The notes beneath the pieces were generated by a model, which had not been told where the DNA came from, searched no databases, and saw nothing but the letters and a program-made list of their open reading frames with translations. A program made the position numbers and the translations under genes. From NCBI RefSeq assembly GCF_000620665.1, contig NZ_KK211162.1, positions 641,764 through 705,763 on the forward strand: a stretch of DNA of 64,000 nucleotides, written 5' to 3'. Positions 2,552 through 34,935 of this stretch are shown here, in pieces (within the stretch, counting starts at the first letter, position 1; each line of letters begins with the position of its first letter). The DNA is from Sphingomonas sp. URHD0057. GTDB lineage: Bacteria; Pseudomonadota; Alphaproteobacteria; Sphingomonadales; Sphingomonadaceae.

Positions 2552-3424
2552 TTATTCGGCGACGTAACGCCAGGGCTGGTCCGGAGCGGCCTTCCGCCAC
2601 ACGGTGAAGAACGGGAATGCCGCCGGCTCGCCCGCCTTGGGCTCCTTGGCGCGGATGAACCCCCAGGTCACGCCGAGATCACCGCTCGTGGCGACCAGCG
2701 CGCCCTTGTCGGGTCCCCAGGTGATCGGCGCCGCGTTTCCTTCGCCGGCCGCCTTGGCGATCGCGGTGTTGCCGAACGTAAAGTCGGAGCCGCCGCCCAT
2801 GTTCATCGCATCTTCCGATCCGAACTCGGCGAAGGCGGGTCCGACGCCGATCTCCTGCGCCCGGTCGGAGAAGGCCTGCTCGGCGGCCTTGAGCGACACC
2901 AGGTTGTCCTGCAGCCGTTGCGGGTCTGGTGCGACCATCTCCACGGGAAGCGCGGGATCGACCCGCGTCGTGATGTCCCCGTCGGCGCTGCCGGCACGCT
3001 TGTAGAAGGCGACTCGCCAGCCCTCCGGCCGCTTCACCCAATAGGCGAGATATTTGGCCCGGCGATCGGGCTTCCCGGCATCGTGAATGAACATGAAGCC
3101 GTAGGTGAACCCCTGAGTGCCGTCGGCCGAGATGCCCGCCCGGATCGGTGACCATTCGGCGCTCGCCGCGGCGTTCGCGGGGTTGCTCTTGAGCGCCTCG
3201 ACGATGGCCGACTTGCCGATCGCAAAATCGAGCTTGGGCGTCGGCATCACGGCGTTTTCGGTCATCATGGCGCTGATCGAATCGACGATGTTCGCCTTGG
3301 CGCCGGCATTGGAAAAAGCGCGGTCGGCAGCGATCAGCTCCGACGCGAGCGTGCGCGGTTCCTGCGCCACCGCAGGAGCCGCGATGACGACCATGCATGC
3401 CAGCGGGAATAGTCTTGAGACCAT
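2552..3424 (-). CDS. Secreted NTF2-like (DUF4440/SnoaL-type) protein, copy 1
   Basis: A 290-aa protein with an N-terminal signal peptide (MVSRLFPLACMVVIAAPAVAQ). Two similar halves can be seen: each begins with an AADRAF/AAEQAFSDRA helix and ends near an aromatic YVAE or YKRAG stretch, as in tandem NTF2-like folds. Motifs such as ISADGTQGFTYGF and GDLGVTWGF are shared with the neighbour at 3570-4493, so the two are tandem paralogues. No catalytic residues can be assigned; a periplasmic role is inferred from the signal peptide. It converges on topA with 3 bp between stops. Confidence 0.8.
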   Translation of the reverse strand: MVSRLFPLACMVVIAAPAVAQEPRTLASELIAADRAFSNAGAKANIVDSISAMMTENAVMPTPKLDFAIGKSAIVEALKSNPANAAASAEWSPIRAGISADGTQGFTYGFMFIHDAGKPDRRAKYLAYWVKRPEGWRVAFYKRAGSADGDITTRVDPALPVEMVAPDPQRLQDNLVSLKAAEQAFSDRAQEIGVGPAFAEFGSEDAMNMGGGSDFTFGNTAIAKAAGEGNAAPITWGPDKGALVATSGDLGVTWGFIRAKEPKAGEPAAFPFFTVWRKAAPDQPWRYVAE

Positions 3425-3510
3425 CGTTGTTCGCTCCTGTTTGCACGGACCTTAGCGAAATCTTTTGGCGGCGGCTCGCCTCGTCGTCGAAGCCTTTGCC
3501 GTTCCATCGA

Positions 3511-3545
3511 AAGAAAGTCCCGCGAGCACGAATGCCCGCGGGACT
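3511..3545 (-). terminator. Rho-independent terminator after the second NTF2-like gene
   Basis: A perfect 9-bp inverted repeat (AGTCCCGCG at 3516-3524, CGCGGGACT at 3537-3545) with a 12-nt loop. On the minus strand the stem is followed by TTTCTTTCG. It lies just downstream of the gene ending at 3570, so the two paralogues are probably transcribed separately. Confidence 0.75.
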
Positions 3546-3569
3546 CCGTCGCCGGCTAGGAGGCCGTAC

Positions 3570-4493
3570 CTACTCGGCGACGTAGCGCCAGGGCACTTGG
3601 GGCGAAACCCGACGCCACACCGTAAACCAGGGGATGCGAGCGAGGCGGCCAGGCGGAACCGTGCCGTTGCGCTCGAGATAGCCGTAGGTGATTCCGAGAT
3701 CGCCGCTCGAGGCGACAAGCACGCCGTCCGGCGCCCAGCGCAGTGGGCTACCCTTGTCGGTCCCGAACCCCGCCGCGATCGCGTCGTTGCCGTAGGTGAA
3801 ATCGGCGCCGCCGCCGACGTTCATCGCATCGGCGCTGCCGTATTTGCGAAATCCGGCGCCCAGGCCAACCACCTGCGATTCATCGGAGAAGGCGCGCTCG
3901 GTCTTGTCGAGATCGGCGCGATAGGCGGCGATGGTCGCAGCATCGGCCGGGACTCCGACCAACCGCTCGGGAACGGCCGCGGGCCTGACGTCGGTCGACA
4001 CCGGGCCCTCGTCGCGCGGGACCAGCTTGAATGCCGCGACGCGCCATCCGGCGGGACGCTTGATCCAATAGGCGACATATTTGTCCAGGACCGGGGGCTT
4101 GCCCGCCATGGTCCGGGTCGCGAAGCCATAAGTGAAGCCTTGCGTCCCGTCCGCGGAAACGCCCGCCCGCACCGGTGCCCAGCCGAGGCTCGACGGATCG
4201 GCGGCGAACGCCTTGCCAAGAAGTTCGACCGCGTCGGAGCGCCCTTTCGCCAAAGGCGGCTGGGGCACGATGAACATGACCACGTCATCATCGAGCATCG
4301 CCGCAACGGCGTCGCCGGCCGGCTTGCCGGCGGCGGCGGCGGCAAAGCCGCGATCCGCGGCGAGCAGATCGTCCGCGACGGCCTGCGGACTTTGACTGAT
4401 GGTGGTGGTAGGCGGCGAAGACTGCGGCGCCGCCAGCGCGGTGACGGAAAGCAACGCAACTGACGCCGCGAGGCCACGCAATGCTGCGCTCAT
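3570..4493 (-). CDS. Secreted NTF2-like (DUF4440/SnoaL-type) protein, copy 2
   Basis: A 307-aa paralogue of the gene at 2552-3424. It has a signal peptide (MSAALRGLAASVALLSVTALA) and the same double NTF2-like layout. Shared blocks include DGTQGFTYGF, AYWIKRPAGWRVAAFK, DAMNVGGGADFTYGN, SSGDLGITYGY and the identical C-terminal end PWRYVAE. Divergence is enough for an old duplication. The function is unknown; relatives are usually annotated only as DUF4440 or nuclear transport factor 2 family proteins. Confidence 0.8.
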   Translation of the reverse strand: MSAALRGLAASVALLSVTALAAPQSSPPTTTISQSPQAVADDLLAADRGFAAAAAGKPAGDAVAAMLDDDVVMFIVPQPPLAKGRSDAVELLGKAFAADPSSLGWAPVRAGVSADGTQGFTYGFATRTMAGKPPVLDKYVAYWIKRPAGWRVAAFKLVPRDEGPVSTDVRPAAVPERLVGVPADAATIAAYRADLDKTERAFSDESQVVGLGAGFRKYGSADAMNVGGGADFTYGNDAIAAGFGTDKGSPLRWAPDGVLVASSGDLGITYGYLERNGTVPPGRLARIPWFTVWRRVSPQVPWRYVAE

Positions 4494-29988: not shown

Positions 29989-30713
29989 ATGGCCGCGACC
30001 GTCGCCACTGTCGCTTATCTCGGCCTCGAGGCGCGCGCCGTCGAGGTTCAGGTCCAGCTGTCGTCGGGTTTGCCGGCATTCATTATCGTCGGGCTGCCGG
30101 ACAAAGCAGTTGCCGAGAGCCGCGAGCGCGTGCGCGCGGCCTTGGCGTCGATCGGCCTCGCGCTTCCGCCCAAGCGGATCACCGTCAATTTGTCGCCGGC
30201 CGATCTGCCCAAGGAAGGCTCGCACTTCGATTTGCCGATCGCTTTGTGCCTGCTGGCGGCGATCGGGGCTACGGACGCCGAGACGCTGTCGCATTATGTC
30301 GCGGTCGGTGAGCTCAGCCTCGACGGCCGGGTTGCTCCGTCGCCGGGCGTGCTGCTTGCCGCGATCCATGCCTCGGCGCAGGACAAGGGCCTGATCTGCC
30401 CGGTTGCGCAAGGCAGTGAAGCGTCCTGGGCCGGTGAGCTCGACGTCATCGCCGCGCCCGACCTGCTTGCCTTGCTCGCGCATCTCAAGGGAAGCGCGCT
30501 ACTGCCTGCGCCGCCCGTCGCAGAGGCCGAGCCGCCCGACGGCGGCCCTGATCTTGCGCAGGTCAAAGGGCAGGAGGTCGCCAAGCGCGCGCTCGAGATT
30601 TGCGCCGCGGGCGGCCACAATCTGCTGATGAGCGGCCCGCCCGGCGCCGGCAAATCGCTGCTCGCCGCGTGCCTGCCCGGCATCCTCCCGCCGCTGCAGC
30701 CGTCCGAGGCACT
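29989..30713 (+). pseudogene. comM: comM 5' part, interrupted by an IS1595-family element
   Basis: N-terminal half of a YifB/ComM AAA+ protein: the lon-protease-like fold (AYLGLEARAVEVQVQLSSG, IIVGLPDKAVAESRERVRAAL, NLSPADLPKEGSHFDLPIAL) then the linker DLAQVKGQEVAKRALEIAAAGGHN-like region and Walker A GPPGAGKSLLAACLPGI. ComM drives branch migration of heteroduplex DNA in natural transformation. The frame runs 13 bp into the element and stops after GIM at 30726. Joined to 34152-34935 it makes exactly 503 codons. Confidence 0.93.
30706..30713. repeat. Left target-site duplication
   Basis: GAGGCACT, identical to the copy at 34144-34151. In the uninterrupted gene this site is part of the codons for SEALEV. 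Confidence 0.92.
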
Positions 30714-30738
30714 CGGCATTATGTAGCAGTCTCCGGAA
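30714..30738 (+). repeat. Left terminal inverted repeat of the element
   Basis: Twenty-five bases, outer part CGGCATTATGTAGCAGTCTC, perfectly inverted at 34119-34143. Its in-frame TAG ends the comM 5' fragment. Confidence 0.93.
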
Positions 30739-30783
30739 AGGGAGCGCGCCTAGCGGCGCGAGCCGCGCTTGATTAGCGGGTGT

Positions 30784-31713
30784 CTAGGCGCGCTTCTTGC
30801 GGCCCTTCTTAGCCTTCAGAGCCAGTCCCTTTTGCGCGGGTTCTTTATGTGGGGCGGTGGTGCATTTTGTCGTGAAAACCACGCCGGTTGCCACCGATTG
30901 GCTGCCGGAAACAACATGTTGTTCGTATCGCCAGTGATCGCCAAACATATCGACGAACGTGATCGCCATATGCAATTCAAAGCGGCCAATCCCGGCGCGC
31001 ATCGCACGGAGCTTTCCGGGGCTCAGTCGCATCGGGGTGTAGGCTTCCACAGGGACCTGCGGGCCAACCGTTCCCATCGCGGTTTTGTAATTCATGCTCG
31101 GGAAAATTCTGGGCTTCTTTCGTCCAGCGATGAAGTAGAGTCGGCGCTCGCTCGCGACTTCCTCCGCCGGGGTTTTTCCAACGTTCCGCAAGAACACGTC
31201 GATGCTAGCCTCATTGCCAGAGATCCTAAGCTTCTCCTTTTCGGCAGCCAGGTAGGCCCTCAGTTCGGCGCGCGTCACCTTTTCGGAATGTCGCAGACCC
31301 TTTTCGGCGGCGTTAGCAGCCCGCCGCGCTTCGATTGCACCGGCTTCGGTGTGCTCAGCAGCGTTCTTTGCGAAAAAGGCGGCGGCGGCAGCGGCACCGA
31401 GCGTGAGCACTCCAATCAGCGTGCCCAGCCAACCAAACAACAAAGTGTAATCAGCGGCATTGCGGGCGGCGTCCGCGGCCTTCCATTGGGCGCAAAGGTC
31501 GCTGGCACCGTTGTTCTGGCCTTCCTTACATGGCTCCTGATAACCCTTGGGCTCATTCGGGCGCTGGAGCGCCGCCGCCACATTGTTGAGGGCGTTGGCT
31601 ACGTTCTGGTTGGTTGCGTCGGCTGGTTGATTACCGGTCTGCTTTGGGTCGGCGGCGGCTAGGCTTAGCCATCCGACAAACGCAACGAGGATGCACCGAC
31701 AGACTCTAGGCAT
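30784..31713 (-). CDS. Cargo membrane protein of unknown function
   Basis: A 309-aa protein. An N-terminal hydrophobic stretch (CILVAFVGWLSLAAA) looks like a signal or anchor, followed by an Asn/Gln-rich region. A second membrane helix (LFGWLGTLIGVLTLGAAAAAAFFA, about residues 93-116) is followed by a helical, coiled-coil-prone segment (EAGAIEARRAANAAEKGLRHSE) and a soluble C-terminal domain, ending in a Lys/Arg-rich tail. The start overlaps the end of the DUF6471 gene by 49 bp. I recognise no family function. Confidence 0.75.
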   Translation of the reverse strand: MPRVCRCILVAFVGWLSLAAADPKQTGNQPADATNQNVANALNNVAAALQRPNEPKGYQEPCKEGQNNGASDLCAQWKAADAARNAADYTLLFGWLGTLIGVLTLGAAAAAAFFAKNAAEHTEAGAIEARRAANAAEKGLRHSEKVTRAELRAYLAAEKEKLRISGNEASIDVFLRNVGKTPAEEVASERRLYFIAGRKKPRIFPSMNYKTAMGTVGPQVPVEAYTPMRLSPGKLRAMRAGIGRFELHMAITFVDMFGDHWRYEQHVVSGSQSVATGVVFTTKCTTAPHKEPAQKGLALKAKKGRKKRA

Positions 31714-31895
31714 TGGATTAGAAACACCGCCGTAAACTTGCCCCGAGCAAGCTTGTTTCTAACATTCGGTTCGGTTTCGTGAACCCCTATTGCGGATAGC
31801 CTCTCAACCAACTGCGCGTAGGTAACCCCACGCTTCTTCAGCTCGGCCTTGAGCAGACCCTTCGCCTTCGCCTCCCATTTCGCATTATCCGGCAT
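31665..31895 (-). CDS. Cargo DUF6471-type small protein
   Basis: A 76-aa protein: KWEAKAKGLLKAELKKRGVT, YAQLVERLSAIGVHETEPNV, NKLARGKFTAVFLIQCLESV. This pattern matches what I know as DUF6471, which resembles a small helix-turn-helix-like fold (KRGVTYAQLVERLSAIG, then an NKLARG loop). ATG 31895 has GGAG six bases upstream. It diverges from the transposase across a 100-bp promoter region and could regulate it. That role is inference. Confidence 0.75.
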   Translation of the reverse strand: MPDNAKWEAKAKGLLKAELKKRGVTYAQLVERLSAIGVHETEPNVRNKLARGKFTAVFLIQCLESVGASSLRLSDG

Positions 31896-31943
31896 TTGCC
31901 ACTCCGTTCGTCGCAAATGCCATCATATACAACACTTTTGCAC

Positions 31944-31972
31944 TTGCCTAGAGTGCATCAATGCCATTATAT
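31944..31972 (+). promoter_or_regulatory. Predicted transposase promoter
   Basis: TTGCCT (31944-31949), a 17-bp spacer and TTATAT (31967-31972), 24 bp before the transposase ATG. It lies in the only intergenic gap between the transposase and the leftward cargo pair. Confidence 0.5.
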
Positions 31973-31995
31973 CCGATGCATAGGCACTGGAAACG

Positions 31996-32955
31996 ATGGC
32001 AATTCACTTCCTCCTCTCGGCAAAGGCCCGCACTCTGAGCCTGAAAGCTGTGTTCTCGATGAGCGAGGACAAGGCTTACGAGACGTTCAAGGCTCTGCGT
32101 TTCGCAGAGACGGACGGCGAGGCTGTTTGCCCGCGCTGCGGCTGTCTCGAAAGCTACAGGAATGCCAAGCGCCGCAACTTTGAGTGCGCCGGGTGCAAGC
32201 ACCAATTCACAGTCACGAGCGGGACGATCTTCGCCAACCGCAAAATGTCGTTCACCGACTTGCTCGCGGCTATCGTGATCTTCGTGAATGGCGCGAAAGG
32301 CGTTGCCGCGCTCCAGCTGAGCCGTGACCTAGACTGCCAATATAAGACCGCGTTCGTTCTCTCGCACAAGCTGCGCGAGGCGATGGCGCGCGAGCAAGCG
32401 AGCGTCCAGCTGAACGGCATTGTCGAGATTGATGGCGGCTATTTTGGCGGCCACGTTCGCCCGGAAAACCGCAAGGAAGATCGCAAGGACCGCCGCCTGA
32501 AAGCGCACCGTTCCGACAAGCGCCAGTGCGTCGTTATCATGCGCTCCCGCAGTGGCCGCTCGCTACCGTTCGTGGTCGCCAACGAGGGTGACGCTTGTCC
32601 GATCGTTCGCGATCGCGTCGGCACCCTCGCCACCATCTACGCCGACGAAGGCACGGGTTGGGATGCGCTCCATGCCGGTTGGGATACGAAGCGCGTCAAC
32701 CACTCGGTTGCATTCATGGACGAAGGCGTTTGCACCAATCAGGCGGAGAGCTATTTCTCTCGCCTTCGTCGCGCCGAAATCGGGACGCATCACCACATCG
32801 CCGGCCCGTATCTCCACGCCTATGCGAACGAAATGGCATGGCGCGAAGATCACCGCCGCGTGGACAACGGCAGACAGGCAATGCTGGTCGCGGGAGCGGT
32901 CATGGCAAGTCGTCAGAGCCGCAGTTGGACCGGCTACTGGCAGCGAGCGGCCTAG
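31996..32955 (+). CDS. IS1595-family transposase
   Basis: A 319-aa transposase. The N-terminus HFLLSAKARTLSLKAVFSMS leads into a zinc ribbon (CPRCGCLESYRNAKRRNFEC then GCKHQFTVTSGTIF), followed by a helix-turn-helix (VAALQLSRDLDCQYKTAF). The ISXO2-like catalytic core shows the first Asp in GIVEIDGGYFGGH, the second in IYADEGTGWDAL, and the Asn/Glu motif in CTNQAESYFSRLRRAEIGTH. These match the DD-N/E layout of IS1595. Complete and unbroken, so potentially active. Closest subgroup probably ISNwi1-like (from memory). Confidence 0.92.
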   Translation: MAIHFLLSAKARTLSLKAVFSMSEDKAYETFKALRFAETDGEAVCPRCGCLESYRNAKRRNFECAGCKHQFTVTSGTIFANRKMSFTDLLAAIVIFVNGAKGVAALQLSRDLDCQYKTAFVLSHKLREAMAREQASVQLNGIVEIDGGYFGGHVRPENRKEDRKDRRLKAHRSDKRQCVVIMRSRSGRSLPFVVANEGDACPIVRDRVGTLATIYADEGTGWDALHAGWDTKRVNHSVAFMDEGVCTNQAESYFSRLRRAEIGTHHHIAGPYLHAYANEMAWREDHRRVDNGRQAMLVAGAVMASRQSRSWTGYWQRAA

Positions 32956-33197
32956 AGGTCGGGCGGCTCCCAACCCTTCGGGGCCAATCTCGCCATATCC
33001 GAGAGCAGGCGTTGGAATCCCCACGGATCGGCATAACCGTCCTCATCGACGGGGACAGTGAACGGCACATGCGGTTCCCATGGGAAGCGCCACCATTCGG
33101 CGGTATTCAGCGGGCCAACGCCTTCAAGCGGCTCACAGCCGTAGCTACGGAGAACCCCTTCCCACTCTTCGCGGGGAAACCGGCGCAGCGCGATCAA
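32952..33197 (-). CDS. Cargo hypothetical protein, second gene of a pair
   Basis: An 81-aa protein rich in Trp, Pro and acidic residues (WEPHVPFTVPVDEDGYADPW, ARLAPKGWEPPDL). No helix-turn-helix or membrane helix is evident. Its ATG follows the stop of the neighbour at 33198 with no gap, so the two are translated together. The stops of this gene and the transposase overlap by 4 bp. Compact size and tight pairing resemble toxin-antitoxin layouts, but no known family is recognised. Confidence 0.65.
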   Translation of the reverse strand: MIALRRFPREEWEGVLRSYGCEPLEGVGPLNTAEWWRFPWEPHVPFTVPVDEDGYADPWGFQRLLSDMARLAPKGWEPPDL

Positions 33198-33485
33198 TTA
33201 ACAGTTCGGGGAAAGTCCCACGTAAGGCACCGGACCGCAAAGATGCGCAGGCATATTGAACGCATCGTCATCGACGTGCGTAGCCTTAAGCACCCTCATA
33301 GGCATACCATACATGGCGGACAGGATGGTTTCGAGCGCAGGCTCGACATCGGCACGCACCAAGTCGGCATCACGGTGCGACAGGACAAAGCCAGGCACCG
33401 AGTCCGAGTATGCGCGCAGACCACCATCGTCGCGGCTTTCAAACCGGACTTTGACGATTACGGGGCTTTCGGGGCGGCTAGCCAT
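33198..33485 (-). CDS. Cargo protein with HicB-like strand pattern
   Basis: A 95-aa protein: VIVKVRFESRDDGGLRAYSD, SVPGFVLSHRDADLVRADVE, PALETILSAM. The order of strand, Gly-Leu-x-x-x-Ser strand, PGF/PGL turn, then a helix recalls the partial RNase-H fold of HicB antitoxins; this is resemblance only. ATG 33485 has GAGGA nine bases upstream and is preferred over a GTG at 33533. It is the first gene of the pair with 32952-33197. Confidence 0.65.
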   Translation of the reverse strand: MASRPESPVIVKVRFESRDDGGLRAYSDSVPGFVLSHRDADLVRADVEPALETILSAMYGMPMRVLKATHVDDDAFNMPAHLCGPVPYVGLSPNC

Positions 33486-33653
33486 AAAGTGAGTCCTCAA
33501 ATATTCGTGGCACACAACGAATCCGAGCTTCACTTGTTCACGTTAACAGAACACGCACCATCGAATCCGATGCGTAAGTCATTATTCGCAATGCAGTGAA
33601 TACCTGATTCGGGTCTTAGACGCAATTCTTTCGGCAATGCAATAGCGCGGCAA

Positions 33654-34085
33654 TTAGGACACTATCCAAAGTTGGTACTGTCCCGGCCCGTCCACAGAAG
33701 TCGCGCGGCCTTTGTCCCGCTGCTCGCGCAGGGCAACGCCAACGCGCTTCGTCATAACCCTCAACATACGTTGATCTTCGGCGTCCATTGCCCGCTCCAG
33801 CAGCATCTGAGCGGCAATCTCGCGGGTCGTTAGCGGTTCCTTGGACGTTCGCAGTATGGACAGCACCAAGCGCGACATTTGCCCGCGCTTCGCCCAATCG
33901 TCGGGCGGGCGGAACGCCTTGGGCCGTATCGCTTCCAGCTCCATATCCGGCGCGACGATCCGAAGCGTCCCGTCGATATGCTCCAGAGCATTGACCAGCT
34001 CGCGCAACCGTTCGTGCGTCCGCTCAATGTCGAAAGCTAGCTCGGCCCGCTTCTTTACGAGGCCCGTCACCATGTAGTCTGTCAT
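33654..34085 (-). CDS. Cargo coiled-coil/winged-helix-like protein
   Basis: A 143-aa protein: an N-terminal helix with heptad character (VKKRAELAFDIERTHERLRE, LVNALEHIDGTL), a linker with RPKAFRPPDDWAKRGQMSRL, and a C-terminal part like a winged helix (SKEPLTTREIAAQMLLERAM, TKRVGVALREQRDKG, GPGQYQLWIV). Similar proteins are common as hypothetical genes beside such elements in alphaproteobacteria, from memory. It is transcribed inward from the right end; a hairpin sharing part of the terminal repeat lies just before its start. Confidence 0.7.
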   Translation of the reverse strand: MTDYMVTGLVKKRAELAFDIERTHERLRELVNALEHIDGTLRIVAPDMELEAIRPKAFRPPDDWAKRGQMSRLVLSILRTSKEPLTTREIAAQMLLERAMDAEDQRMLRVMTKRVGVALREQRDKGRATSVDGPGQYQLWIVS

Positions 34086-34086
34086 G

Positions 34087-34105
34087 GCGATTATGTAGCA
34101 ATCGC
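34087..34105. promoter_or_regulatory. Hairpin containing a piece of the terminal repeat
   Basis: GCGATT (34087-34092), ATGTAGC, AATCGC (34100-34105) forms an inverted repeat one base upstream of the 143-aa gene. It includes ATTATGTAGCA, an 11-base match to the terminal repeat in the left-end orientation, 14 bp inside the right end. It might be an extra transposase site or an operator. Confidence 0.45.
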
Positions 34106-34118
34106 ACCAACGGCAGGC

Positions 34119-34143
34119 TTCCGGAGACTGCTACATAATGCCG
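34119..34143 (-). repeat. Right terminal inverted repeat of the element
   Basis: Exact reverse complement of 30714-30738; no mismatch over 25 bases. The target copy follows directly. Confidence 0.93.
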
Positions 34144-34151
34144 GAGGCACT
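34144..34151. repeat. Right target-site duplication
   Basis: GAGGCACT directly after the right inverted repeat; partner of 30706-30713. Confidence 0.92.
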
Positions 34152-34935
34152 CGAAGTGTCGATGGTCGCATCGGTCGCGGGCGAGCTCAATGGCGGCAAG
34201 ATCAGGCGGCGGCGTCCGTTCCGCGCGCCGCATCACAGCGCCTCGATGCCGGCGCTGGTCGGCGGTGGCCTTCGCGTCCGCCCTGGCGAGATCAGCCTGG
34301 CGCATCTCGGCGTCCTGTTCCTCGACGAGCTTCCCGAATTCCAGCGGCCGGTTCTCGATTCCCTTCGCCAGCCGCTGGAGACCGGATCGGTCAGCGTCGC
34401 CCGCGCCAATACCCACGTAACTTTCCCGGCGCGTGTGCAGCTGGTGGCGGCGATGAATCCGTGCCGCTGCGGCCATCTCGGCGATCCGGCGCTGGCCTGC
34501 AGTCGCGCGCCGCGCTGTGCCGCCGATTACCAGGCCAAGGTGTCGGGCCCGCTGCTCGACCGCATCGATCTGCATGTCGAGGTGCCGGGCGTGTCGGCGG
34601 CCGACCTGACGCTCCCGCCGCCCGCCGAGGGCAGTGCCGAGGTCGGCCGGCGTGTCGCCGCCGCGCGCGAGCTGCAGGCGCGGCGCTACAACGGCAATGG
34701 CGTCCGCACCAACGCCGAAGCCGACGGTGAGCTGCTGGATTCGGTGGCGACCCCCGACGACCCCGGCCGCAAGCTCCTCGCCGACGCGGCCGCCGCGATG
34801 CGCTTGTCGGCCCGCGGCTTCCATCGCGTGATGCGCGTCGCGCGAACCATCGCCGACCTCGCCGGCACCGAGCAGGTCGGCCGGATCCACATCGCCGAGG
34901 CGCTCAGCTACCGCCGCCAGGCACCGCGGAATTGA
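34152..34935 (+). pseudogene. comM: comM 3' part, separated from its 5' half
   Basis: C-terminal half of ComM: EVSMVASVAGELNGGKI, RPFRAPHHSASMPALVGGG, Walker B GVLFLDELPEFQ, the Cys motif NPCRCGHLG and the arginine-containing GPLLDRIDLHVEVPG, ending with the Mg-chelatase-type HIAEALSYR helix. An ATG at the element edge (34138) might allow a partial protein, but it would lack Walker A. The domain order shows no further damage, suggesting a recent insertion. Confidence 0.93.

Follow-up and report, generated by a model that had tools for sequence, protein, structure and literature searches.

We found that comM, a gene of the yifB family, is split in a 64,000-nucleotide stretch of Sphingomonas sp. 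URHD0057 (contig NZ_KK211162.1; hereafter the window) by a transposon of the IS1595 type. Comparison with related elements makes it probable that this transposon combines a fixed backbone and replaceable cargo with an exchangeable protein of 143 residues, here named RE143, which directs it to conserved sites, and that a recent insertion at codon 240 split comM in the window. Judged from sequence comparison, this very small transposon seems to carry a target selector, RE143, that can be exchanged; the RE143 type appears to predict the target independently of transposase kinship, with exceptions that are weighed below.

comM and the inserted element in the window

The element is 3,430 bp long (30714-34143) and is present as a single copy in the 2.79-Mb host genome. 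The parts of comM and the backbone of the element are listed below; the duplications and terminal repeats were read directly from the sequence.

29989..30713, plus strand: 5' part of comM (yifB family), Walker A included (PF13541, 1.8e-40; PF01078, 3e-21; TIGR00368)
30706..30713: target duplication, left copy, GAGGCACT, 8 bp
30714..30738: left terminal inverted repeat, 25 nt
31665..31916, minus strand: DUF6471 protein, 83 aa, backbone gene adjoining the transposase gene (PF20075, 5e-30)
31996..32955, plus strand: IS1595-family DDE transposase, 319 aa (PF12762, 9.3e-40; PF12760, 1.1e-11; NF033547)
33654..34085, minus strand: RE143, proposed target selector, 143 aa, with a predicted long helix and winged helix (profile, AlphaFold2 model and sorting by target)
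34119..34143: right terminal inverted repeat, 25 nt
34144..34151: target duplication, right copy, GAGGCACT, 8 bp
34152..34935, plus strand: 3' part of comM, Walker B and C-terminal domain (PF01078, 1.7e-65; PF13335, 1.6e-29)

The element showed the features of the IS1595 family, namely a DDE transposase above the curated cut-offs (NF033547, 153.6 bits versus 75; PF12762, 136.6 versus 27), terminal inverted repeats and an 8-bp duplication, the length typical of this family. The two inverted repeats were 100% complementary over 25 nt, and their outer 15 nt matched the window only at the two ends of the element when up to two mismatches were allowed (chance mean, 0.00). A first-pass annotation, made from the letters of the window, had reported these perfect repeats, the identical 8-bp target copies and a clean split of comM with its halves in register, all of which were verified. 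The two pieces of 725 and 784 bp, after removal of the element and one octamer, gave 1,509 bp, that is, 502 codons and a stop. This length equals that of comM in relatives of the genus, in which the gene runs uninterrupted across the insertion site. Both halves matched the YifB/ComM family, each under the whole-protein cut-off, as expected for halves.

The same annotation had taken the halves to be otherwise undamaged and the insertion to be recent, and our comparisons agree with both. Codons private to the window comM comprised three amino-acid and 15 silent changes, and we found no sign of decay or relaxed constraint because this ratio of 0.2 was lower than in 19 of 25 relatives (of 29 loci given, four whose retrieved sequence contained no complete frame were dropped). 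Additionally, no transposase match above 41% identity was found in the 60 other genus members searched (61 with the window's own genome). The window's genome also carries three further, distant IS1595-type transposases of 30-34% identity (G000 C4:482895, C7:170672 and C10:49921).

The annotation had further proposed a search for intact comM in related sphingomonads. The C-terminal half was matched in 63 of 71 genus genomes, the window's own counted, mostly over residues 3-265; eight of the 71 (five of 53 of good quality) gave no match to it, and several others gave partial matches only. It seems that comM has been lost in the genus by other means too. Domains of comEC and dprA were found in the window's genome, in which ComM is presumably inactive. 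As to the edges of the split gene, the inverted repeat supplies the upstream half with an in-frame TAG at 30724-30726 (..EALGIM*) and the downstream half with an in-frame ATG at 34138 (MPEALEV..), from which this half is open.

Target sites and RE143 types among related elements

Relatives were collected by scans of genome contigs (the best 80 of 201 places) and virus contigs (21), which gave 101 loci with transposases 56-81% identical; more distant members are under-sampled because only the best 80 of the 201 places were kept. The first set consisted of 81 elements, namely that of the window and 80 of the 101 whose ends were similar and whose 8-bp target copies differed at no more than one position; the 21 loci that lacked such a clean duplication were left out of the counts. 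A held-out set of 23 non-duplicate elements was obtained from order, class and family draws of genomes, after 17 repeats, one locus without a pair of ends and five without a clean duplication had been removed from 46 later loci, and a match starting at a contig edge in G990 was left out. The combined set thus comprised 104 elements (window, 80 and 23), all with a clean duplication. In the order draw of 396 genomes, 21 genomes had a transposase match at E 3.3e-113 or better, and seven of the 20 elements with a clean duplication lay in comM.

The backbone was conserved among the 81 elements, in which profile matches were found to the transposase (81), RE143 (80) and DUF6471 (75). Of the 80 RE143 genes, 73 occupied the right end and were encoded on the minus strand, while seven stood elsewhere in the element; L076 had none. 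In the combined set, the protein was matched in 103 of 104. The virus-contig element L148 is unusual in that its RE143-like gene (3282-3715) is on the plus strand and occupies the left end. The ends of the relatives were mostly CGGCATTATGTAGCAAACGC-like, with inverted repeats of about 20-25 bp.

Insertions in comM accounted for 28 of the 81 elements and 34 of the 104, and they fell at two exact positions. At site A, which is the site used in the window, the duplication started at codon 240 in 18 of 18 elements (five in plus and 13 in minus orientation); at site B, it started at codon 304 (DELP-EF) in 16 of 16 (ten plus, six minus). Site A lies between Walker A and Walker B, and site B sits six bases past the DE codons of what we take to be the Walker B motif. 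The first-pass annotation had suggested that comM serves as an independent landing site and that a survey without comM bias would speak against targeting; such an outcome did not occur, because about a third of the elements (34/104) shared these two positions, and the suggestion of a landing site is supported. L072 (3526-8942) has three copies of the octamer GAATTCAG: between its element at site B and the point where comM resumes lie about 1.3 kb, which terminate in a further inverted repeat and octamer. This arrangement would fit the use of one site by two elements.

Other targets also recurred. An NfrB-like glycosyltransferase gene was hit by 11 of the 104 elements, although this target is less exact than comM because more than one position within the gene was used. 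The glycosyltransferase pieces from L040 matched NF011307 ('glycosyl transferase family protein') best and also the NfrB model NF008411 (6e-65 and 1e-30), both halves scoring under the whole-protein cut-offs. L034 and L044 were inserted at the 3' end of a tRNA-Gln. L110 and L157 shared flanks, and a piece from L157 matched the gene-transfer-agent 'megatron' baseplate model; L155 and L164 also shared flanks, in a gene that is presumably methylase-like and matched no model. L050 and L054 lay in an adhesin-like repeat gene (by eye), L054 with weak matches to autotransporter models. By eye, the flanks of L038, L197, L209 and L238 placed the octamer GTCATTCC/GGAATGAC inside a palindromic repeat, L047 and L202 carried AACTTGTT with a similar sequence in L211, and ten elements, mostly from Rhodobacterales hosts, stood beside a CCTCCGGCGGGG-type repeat. 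In L195, one repeat was searched for by pattern and was not found. Four elements with common flanks were given the working label 'HNH', and L097, L112, L077 and L230 had a common RE143 type with no target recognised in common.

To relate these targets to the genes of the element, we compared the 49 elements that had a labelled recurring target at that stage, leaving out 30 rows labelled 'other'. All 117 pairs with RE143 at least 50% identical had the same target, including nine of nine whose transposases were less than 60% identical. Conversely, pairs with transposases at least 80% identical shared a target in none of nine cases when RE143 was below 25% identity and in four of 57 when it was 25-35%. 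The nearest neighbour had the same target in 48 of 49 elements by RE143 and in 32 of 49 by transposase, against a shuffled mean of 10.5. The sister elements L036 (comM) and L059 (NfrB-like gene) illustrate this pattern, as they share a 1,267-bp core at 88% identity and only 29 bp of the right end.

A similar picture emerged when the same 103 elements, under 14 target labels, were placed on trees. RE143 required 25 label changes, the transposase 53 and shuffled labels 70, with site A changing 7 versus 16 times, site B 3 versus 11 and NfrB 1 versus 9 on the RE143 and transposase trees, respectively; both trees were quick and built on few columns. Nine of 13 shared labels formed one side of a single RE143-tree branch (eight with support of at least 95, 'HNH' with 8), while two of 13 did so on the transposase tree (supports 97 and 57). 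The figure of 25 favours RE143 because some small labels (repeats, adhesin-like, tRNA) were set by eye, partly after its sisters had been viewed; the comM site-A, site-B and NfrB labels came from sequence searches and have no such lean.

In the held-out set, an RE143 at least 50% identical to a comM or NfrB type predicted the target in ten of 12 new loci (L204, L208, L210, L232, L233, L237, L242, L243, L244 and L245), and across all types, 15 of 18 agreed, L211 by eye only. Below the 50% cut, L207 (48%, NfrB) and L227 (49%, comM) agreed as well.

Other candidates for the chooser were considered and rejected. Targets intermix on the transposase tree; nearest neighbours by DUF6471 and by the left-end gene shared a target in 21 of 44 and six of 23 cases, respectively, which is a weak association; and a guide RNA was rejected for exact words, the mean longest shared word being 9.58 with the element's own target and 9.69 with others.

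The AlphaFold2 model of RE143, built with 51 relatives, had a predicted local distance difference test score of 85.8 and a predicted template modelling (TM) score of 0.57. It contains a helix at residues 2-44 followed by three helices and a two-stranded wing. Foldseek placed it among winged-helix proteins (2mh2, target-normalised TM 0.83, E 0.01; MarR and Fur types), with no fold match in the PDB at E 0.001 or better, and when its sequence was searched against proteins of solved structure, most matches were to coiled coils in the regulatory subunits of PI3-kinase. The predicted fold suggests a DNA-binding role. No single part of the protein stood out in target agreement (N-terminal helix 38/45, C-terminal domain 38/45, third helix 40/45, full length 37/45).

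In the mechanism that we propose, the group consists of alphaproteobacterial IS1595-family transposons whose backbone would comprise DUF6471, the DDE transposase, RE143, inverted repeats and 8-bp duplications. The transposase would cut and join by the usual DDE chemistry of its family, and RE143, to judge from its association with targets, would bind a particular conserved host sequence and bring the transposase there. One RE143 type would lead to comM codon 240 and others to codon 304, the NfrB-like gene, the 3' end of tRNA-Gln or intergenic repeats, and RE143 would be exchanged among elements with nearly identical transposases. In the window, an element of the codon-240 type would have inserted recently, splitting comM.

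Exceptions and alternative explanations

Beside the quick trees and the labels set by eye, several exceptions weigh against RE143 as the selector. Seven elements with an RE143 at least 50% identical to a comM type were inserted elsewhere (L056, L065, L198, L205, L148, L150 and L158). When all elements were counted, 181 of 261 pairs at or above 50% agreed, the 80 mismatches involving those seven, and nearest neighbours agreed in 37 of 45 cases when every element was counted against the comM and NfrB types. Two of the seven, L198 and L205, were the held-out misses among the comM and NfrB types, and L230 was missed in another type. Four of the hosts have an unsplit comM, so an RE143 of the comM type does not direct every insertion to that gene. 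The hosts of L056 (G1035), L198 (G111) and L065 (G1047) keep an uninterrupted comM, matched in one stop-free frame over residues 2-502, 1-499 and 1-500, respectively; in the host of L205 (G293), comM is matched over 1-451 and, in another frame, over the overlapping 431-502, and is therefore unsplit at both sites and apparently frameshifted near its end. The other three elements, L148, L150 and L158, sit in virus contigs, of which the first two were searched and gave no comM match. L146, also in a virus contig and with a fragmentary RE143, grouped with the site-A types and lay outside comM. Finally, the short terminal DNA beside RE143 usually moves with it, and the protein is thus not separated from it. 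We also observed that L056 and L205, both off target with a site-A type RE143, have GATCnnnn and then CACGGCCTG beside the duplication, which is perhaps a secondary recognition sequence.

Four alternative explanations were considered. One holds that the transposase alone, with a weak preference for palindromic octamers, picks the sites, and that insertions in comM persist because they are nearly harmless or prevent their own loss by transformation. Outside comM, the 53 sites of the first set do show a weak symmetric duplication consensus (0.35-0.54 bit at six positions), and comM is missing or partial in some genomes of the genus, as described above. However, selection for comM loss would scatter insertions over the 1.5-kb gene, and all 34 were found at two codons; in addition, nearly identical transposases reach different fixed targets that RE143 predicts. 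We consider this explanation largely refuted by the two-position result, and it retains a small share of our confidence.

Slightly less probable still is the idea that non-coding DNA at the right end, or an RNA made there, sets the target in place of the RE143 protein. The stretch between RE143 and the element end (median 68 bp including the terminal repeat) does travel with RE143 in most elements. Set against this, elements and their own targets had no word in common above background, and RE143, present in 80 of 81 elements, is predicted to bind DNA.

We give the same low weight to the view that recombination between elements at one site homogenises their right ends, so that RE143 is a passenger of the site and not its chooser. 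Cargo and ends have clearly been exchanged between elements, as this view requires. The left-end gene, however, is equally close to a flank and hardly follows the target (6/23), and single RE143 types occur in both comM orientations, as in the window (plus) and L042 (minus) or L088 (plus) and L079 (minus). Exchange through the flanks is an unlikely source of RE143 likeness because, between insertions in opposite orientations, it would not make one end alike.

Old, inherited comM insertions whose common position reflects common descent are very improbable: the transposase tree does place side by side some elements of one genus with one target (Bradyrhizobium L078, L079 and L088), but there are two sites in both orientations with different cargo and hosts in several families, the starred branches of that tree force at least 11 site-A and at least seven site-B label changes, and among 61 genus genomes, the element was found only in the window's own, with empty orthologous positions in the genus.

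Cargo, significance and comparison with known systems

The remaining three genes of the window's element are cargo, for which no family match above cut-off was obtained in Pfam, NCBIfam, PADLOC or PHROGs:

30784..31713, minus strand: left-end cargo gene, 309 aa, no assigned function, no match in the four databases
32952..33197, minus strand: cargo open reading frame (ORF), 81 aa, no match in the four databases; relative in L157
33198..33533, minus strand: cargo ORF, 111 aa, PF16817 at E 0.024, under the cut-off; relative in L157

The left-end family (about 300 aa) was present in 35 of 81 elements and common to different targets, to which it was weakly tied. Cargo varied even between the sisters L036 and L059, which have in common the core described above and 25-29 bp at the ends. 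A scan of cargo covered 98 of 105 ORFs, each of at least 120 aa. Pfam matches included Panacea (4), Bro-N (3), KilA-N (3) and M78 peptidase (3), with Fic, PemK and a DprA-like domain once each. PADLOC matches, among the 25 of 78 families listed, included BstA (5), RmrA (4), capP (3) and the candidates PDC-S05 and PDC-S13. Cargo of elements from L034 to L164 thus contained defence-like genes, such as BstA (5/98 ORFs) and Panacea-type antitoxins (4/98).

On a broader view, which we hold likely with somewhat less confidence than the reading for the window, a simple one-transposase IS1595 element evolved interchangeable winged-helix address proteins of about 143 aa, so that the swap of a single gene redirects it among fixed sites: two in comM, the NfrB-like gene, tRNA-Gln, the gene-transfer-agent baseplate gene and intergenic repeats. 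Including this one, three or more transposition systems that are unrelated to one another would thus have used comM. Several of the targeted genes function in DNA uptake, phage adsorption or gene transfer, and the elements may therefore also shut routes of their own or their host's displacement. We speculate that an element gains from hitting comM, the NfrB-like gene and gene-transfer-agent genes because paths of phage entry or DNA replacement are thereby closed; for comM, the gain of mobile elements from its loss has been argued in the literature (PMC11472951).

The element resembles the IS1595 family in its DDE_Tnp_IS1595 and zinc-ribbon domains, inverted repeats and 8-bp duplications, and differs in carrying a conserved gene for a predicted winged-helix protein and cargo and in using fixed sites. 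We know of no IS1595 member with a separate target selector. A search of the open-licence literature at listing level found no report of IS1595 in comM, of DUF6471 or of a selector for IS1595.

Tn7-like elements, larger and more complex than the present one, are known to have separate and swappable target selectors, and Tn6022/AbaR elements use Tn7-type machinery. The TnsD/TnsE and TniQ-type selectors (summarised in PMC10293859) are similar to RE143 in its proposed role, in that a separate, exchangeable protein picks a conserved attachment site. In contrast, the six element ORFs had no match to such families or to an AAA+ regulator, nor to TnsA, TnsB, TnsC or TnsF (Pfam and NCBIfam gave only IS1595, DUF6471 and sub-threshold matches).

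According to PMC10293859, TnsF directs both Tn6022 (Tn7-like) and Tsy (a tyrosine recombinase element) to comM, this targeting requires a conserved 10-bp stretch in Walker B, and TnsF is an inactivated tyrosine recombinase. Insertion at a fixed comM position was also found here (codon 240 in 18/104 and codon 304 in 16/104), a likeness in target only. Insertion near Walker B guided by a protein, as described for Tn6022/AbaR, has its counterpart in site B, which adjoins that motif. The differences are that RE143 is a small predicted winged helix and TnsF, as described there, an inactivated recombinase, that codon 240 lies between Walker A and B, and that orientation here is not fixed. Tsy likewise is described as inserting at the Walker B region, by recombinase chemistry and with no detectable inverted repeats, whereas the present element has a DDE transposase, 8-bp duplications and perfect 25-bp inverted repeats, and no recombinase domain was matched in Pfam.

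These elements add an unrelated lineage to those that hit comM, which sharpens the question of why this gene is repeatedly attacked. If the reading of RE143 as a selector is true, natural selector variants with different fixed targets would make a target-recognition code directly comparable, and an element of 3-4 kb, in which a single transposase is paired with a 143-aa selector, would solve the same problem as the Tn7-like elements at a far smaller size.

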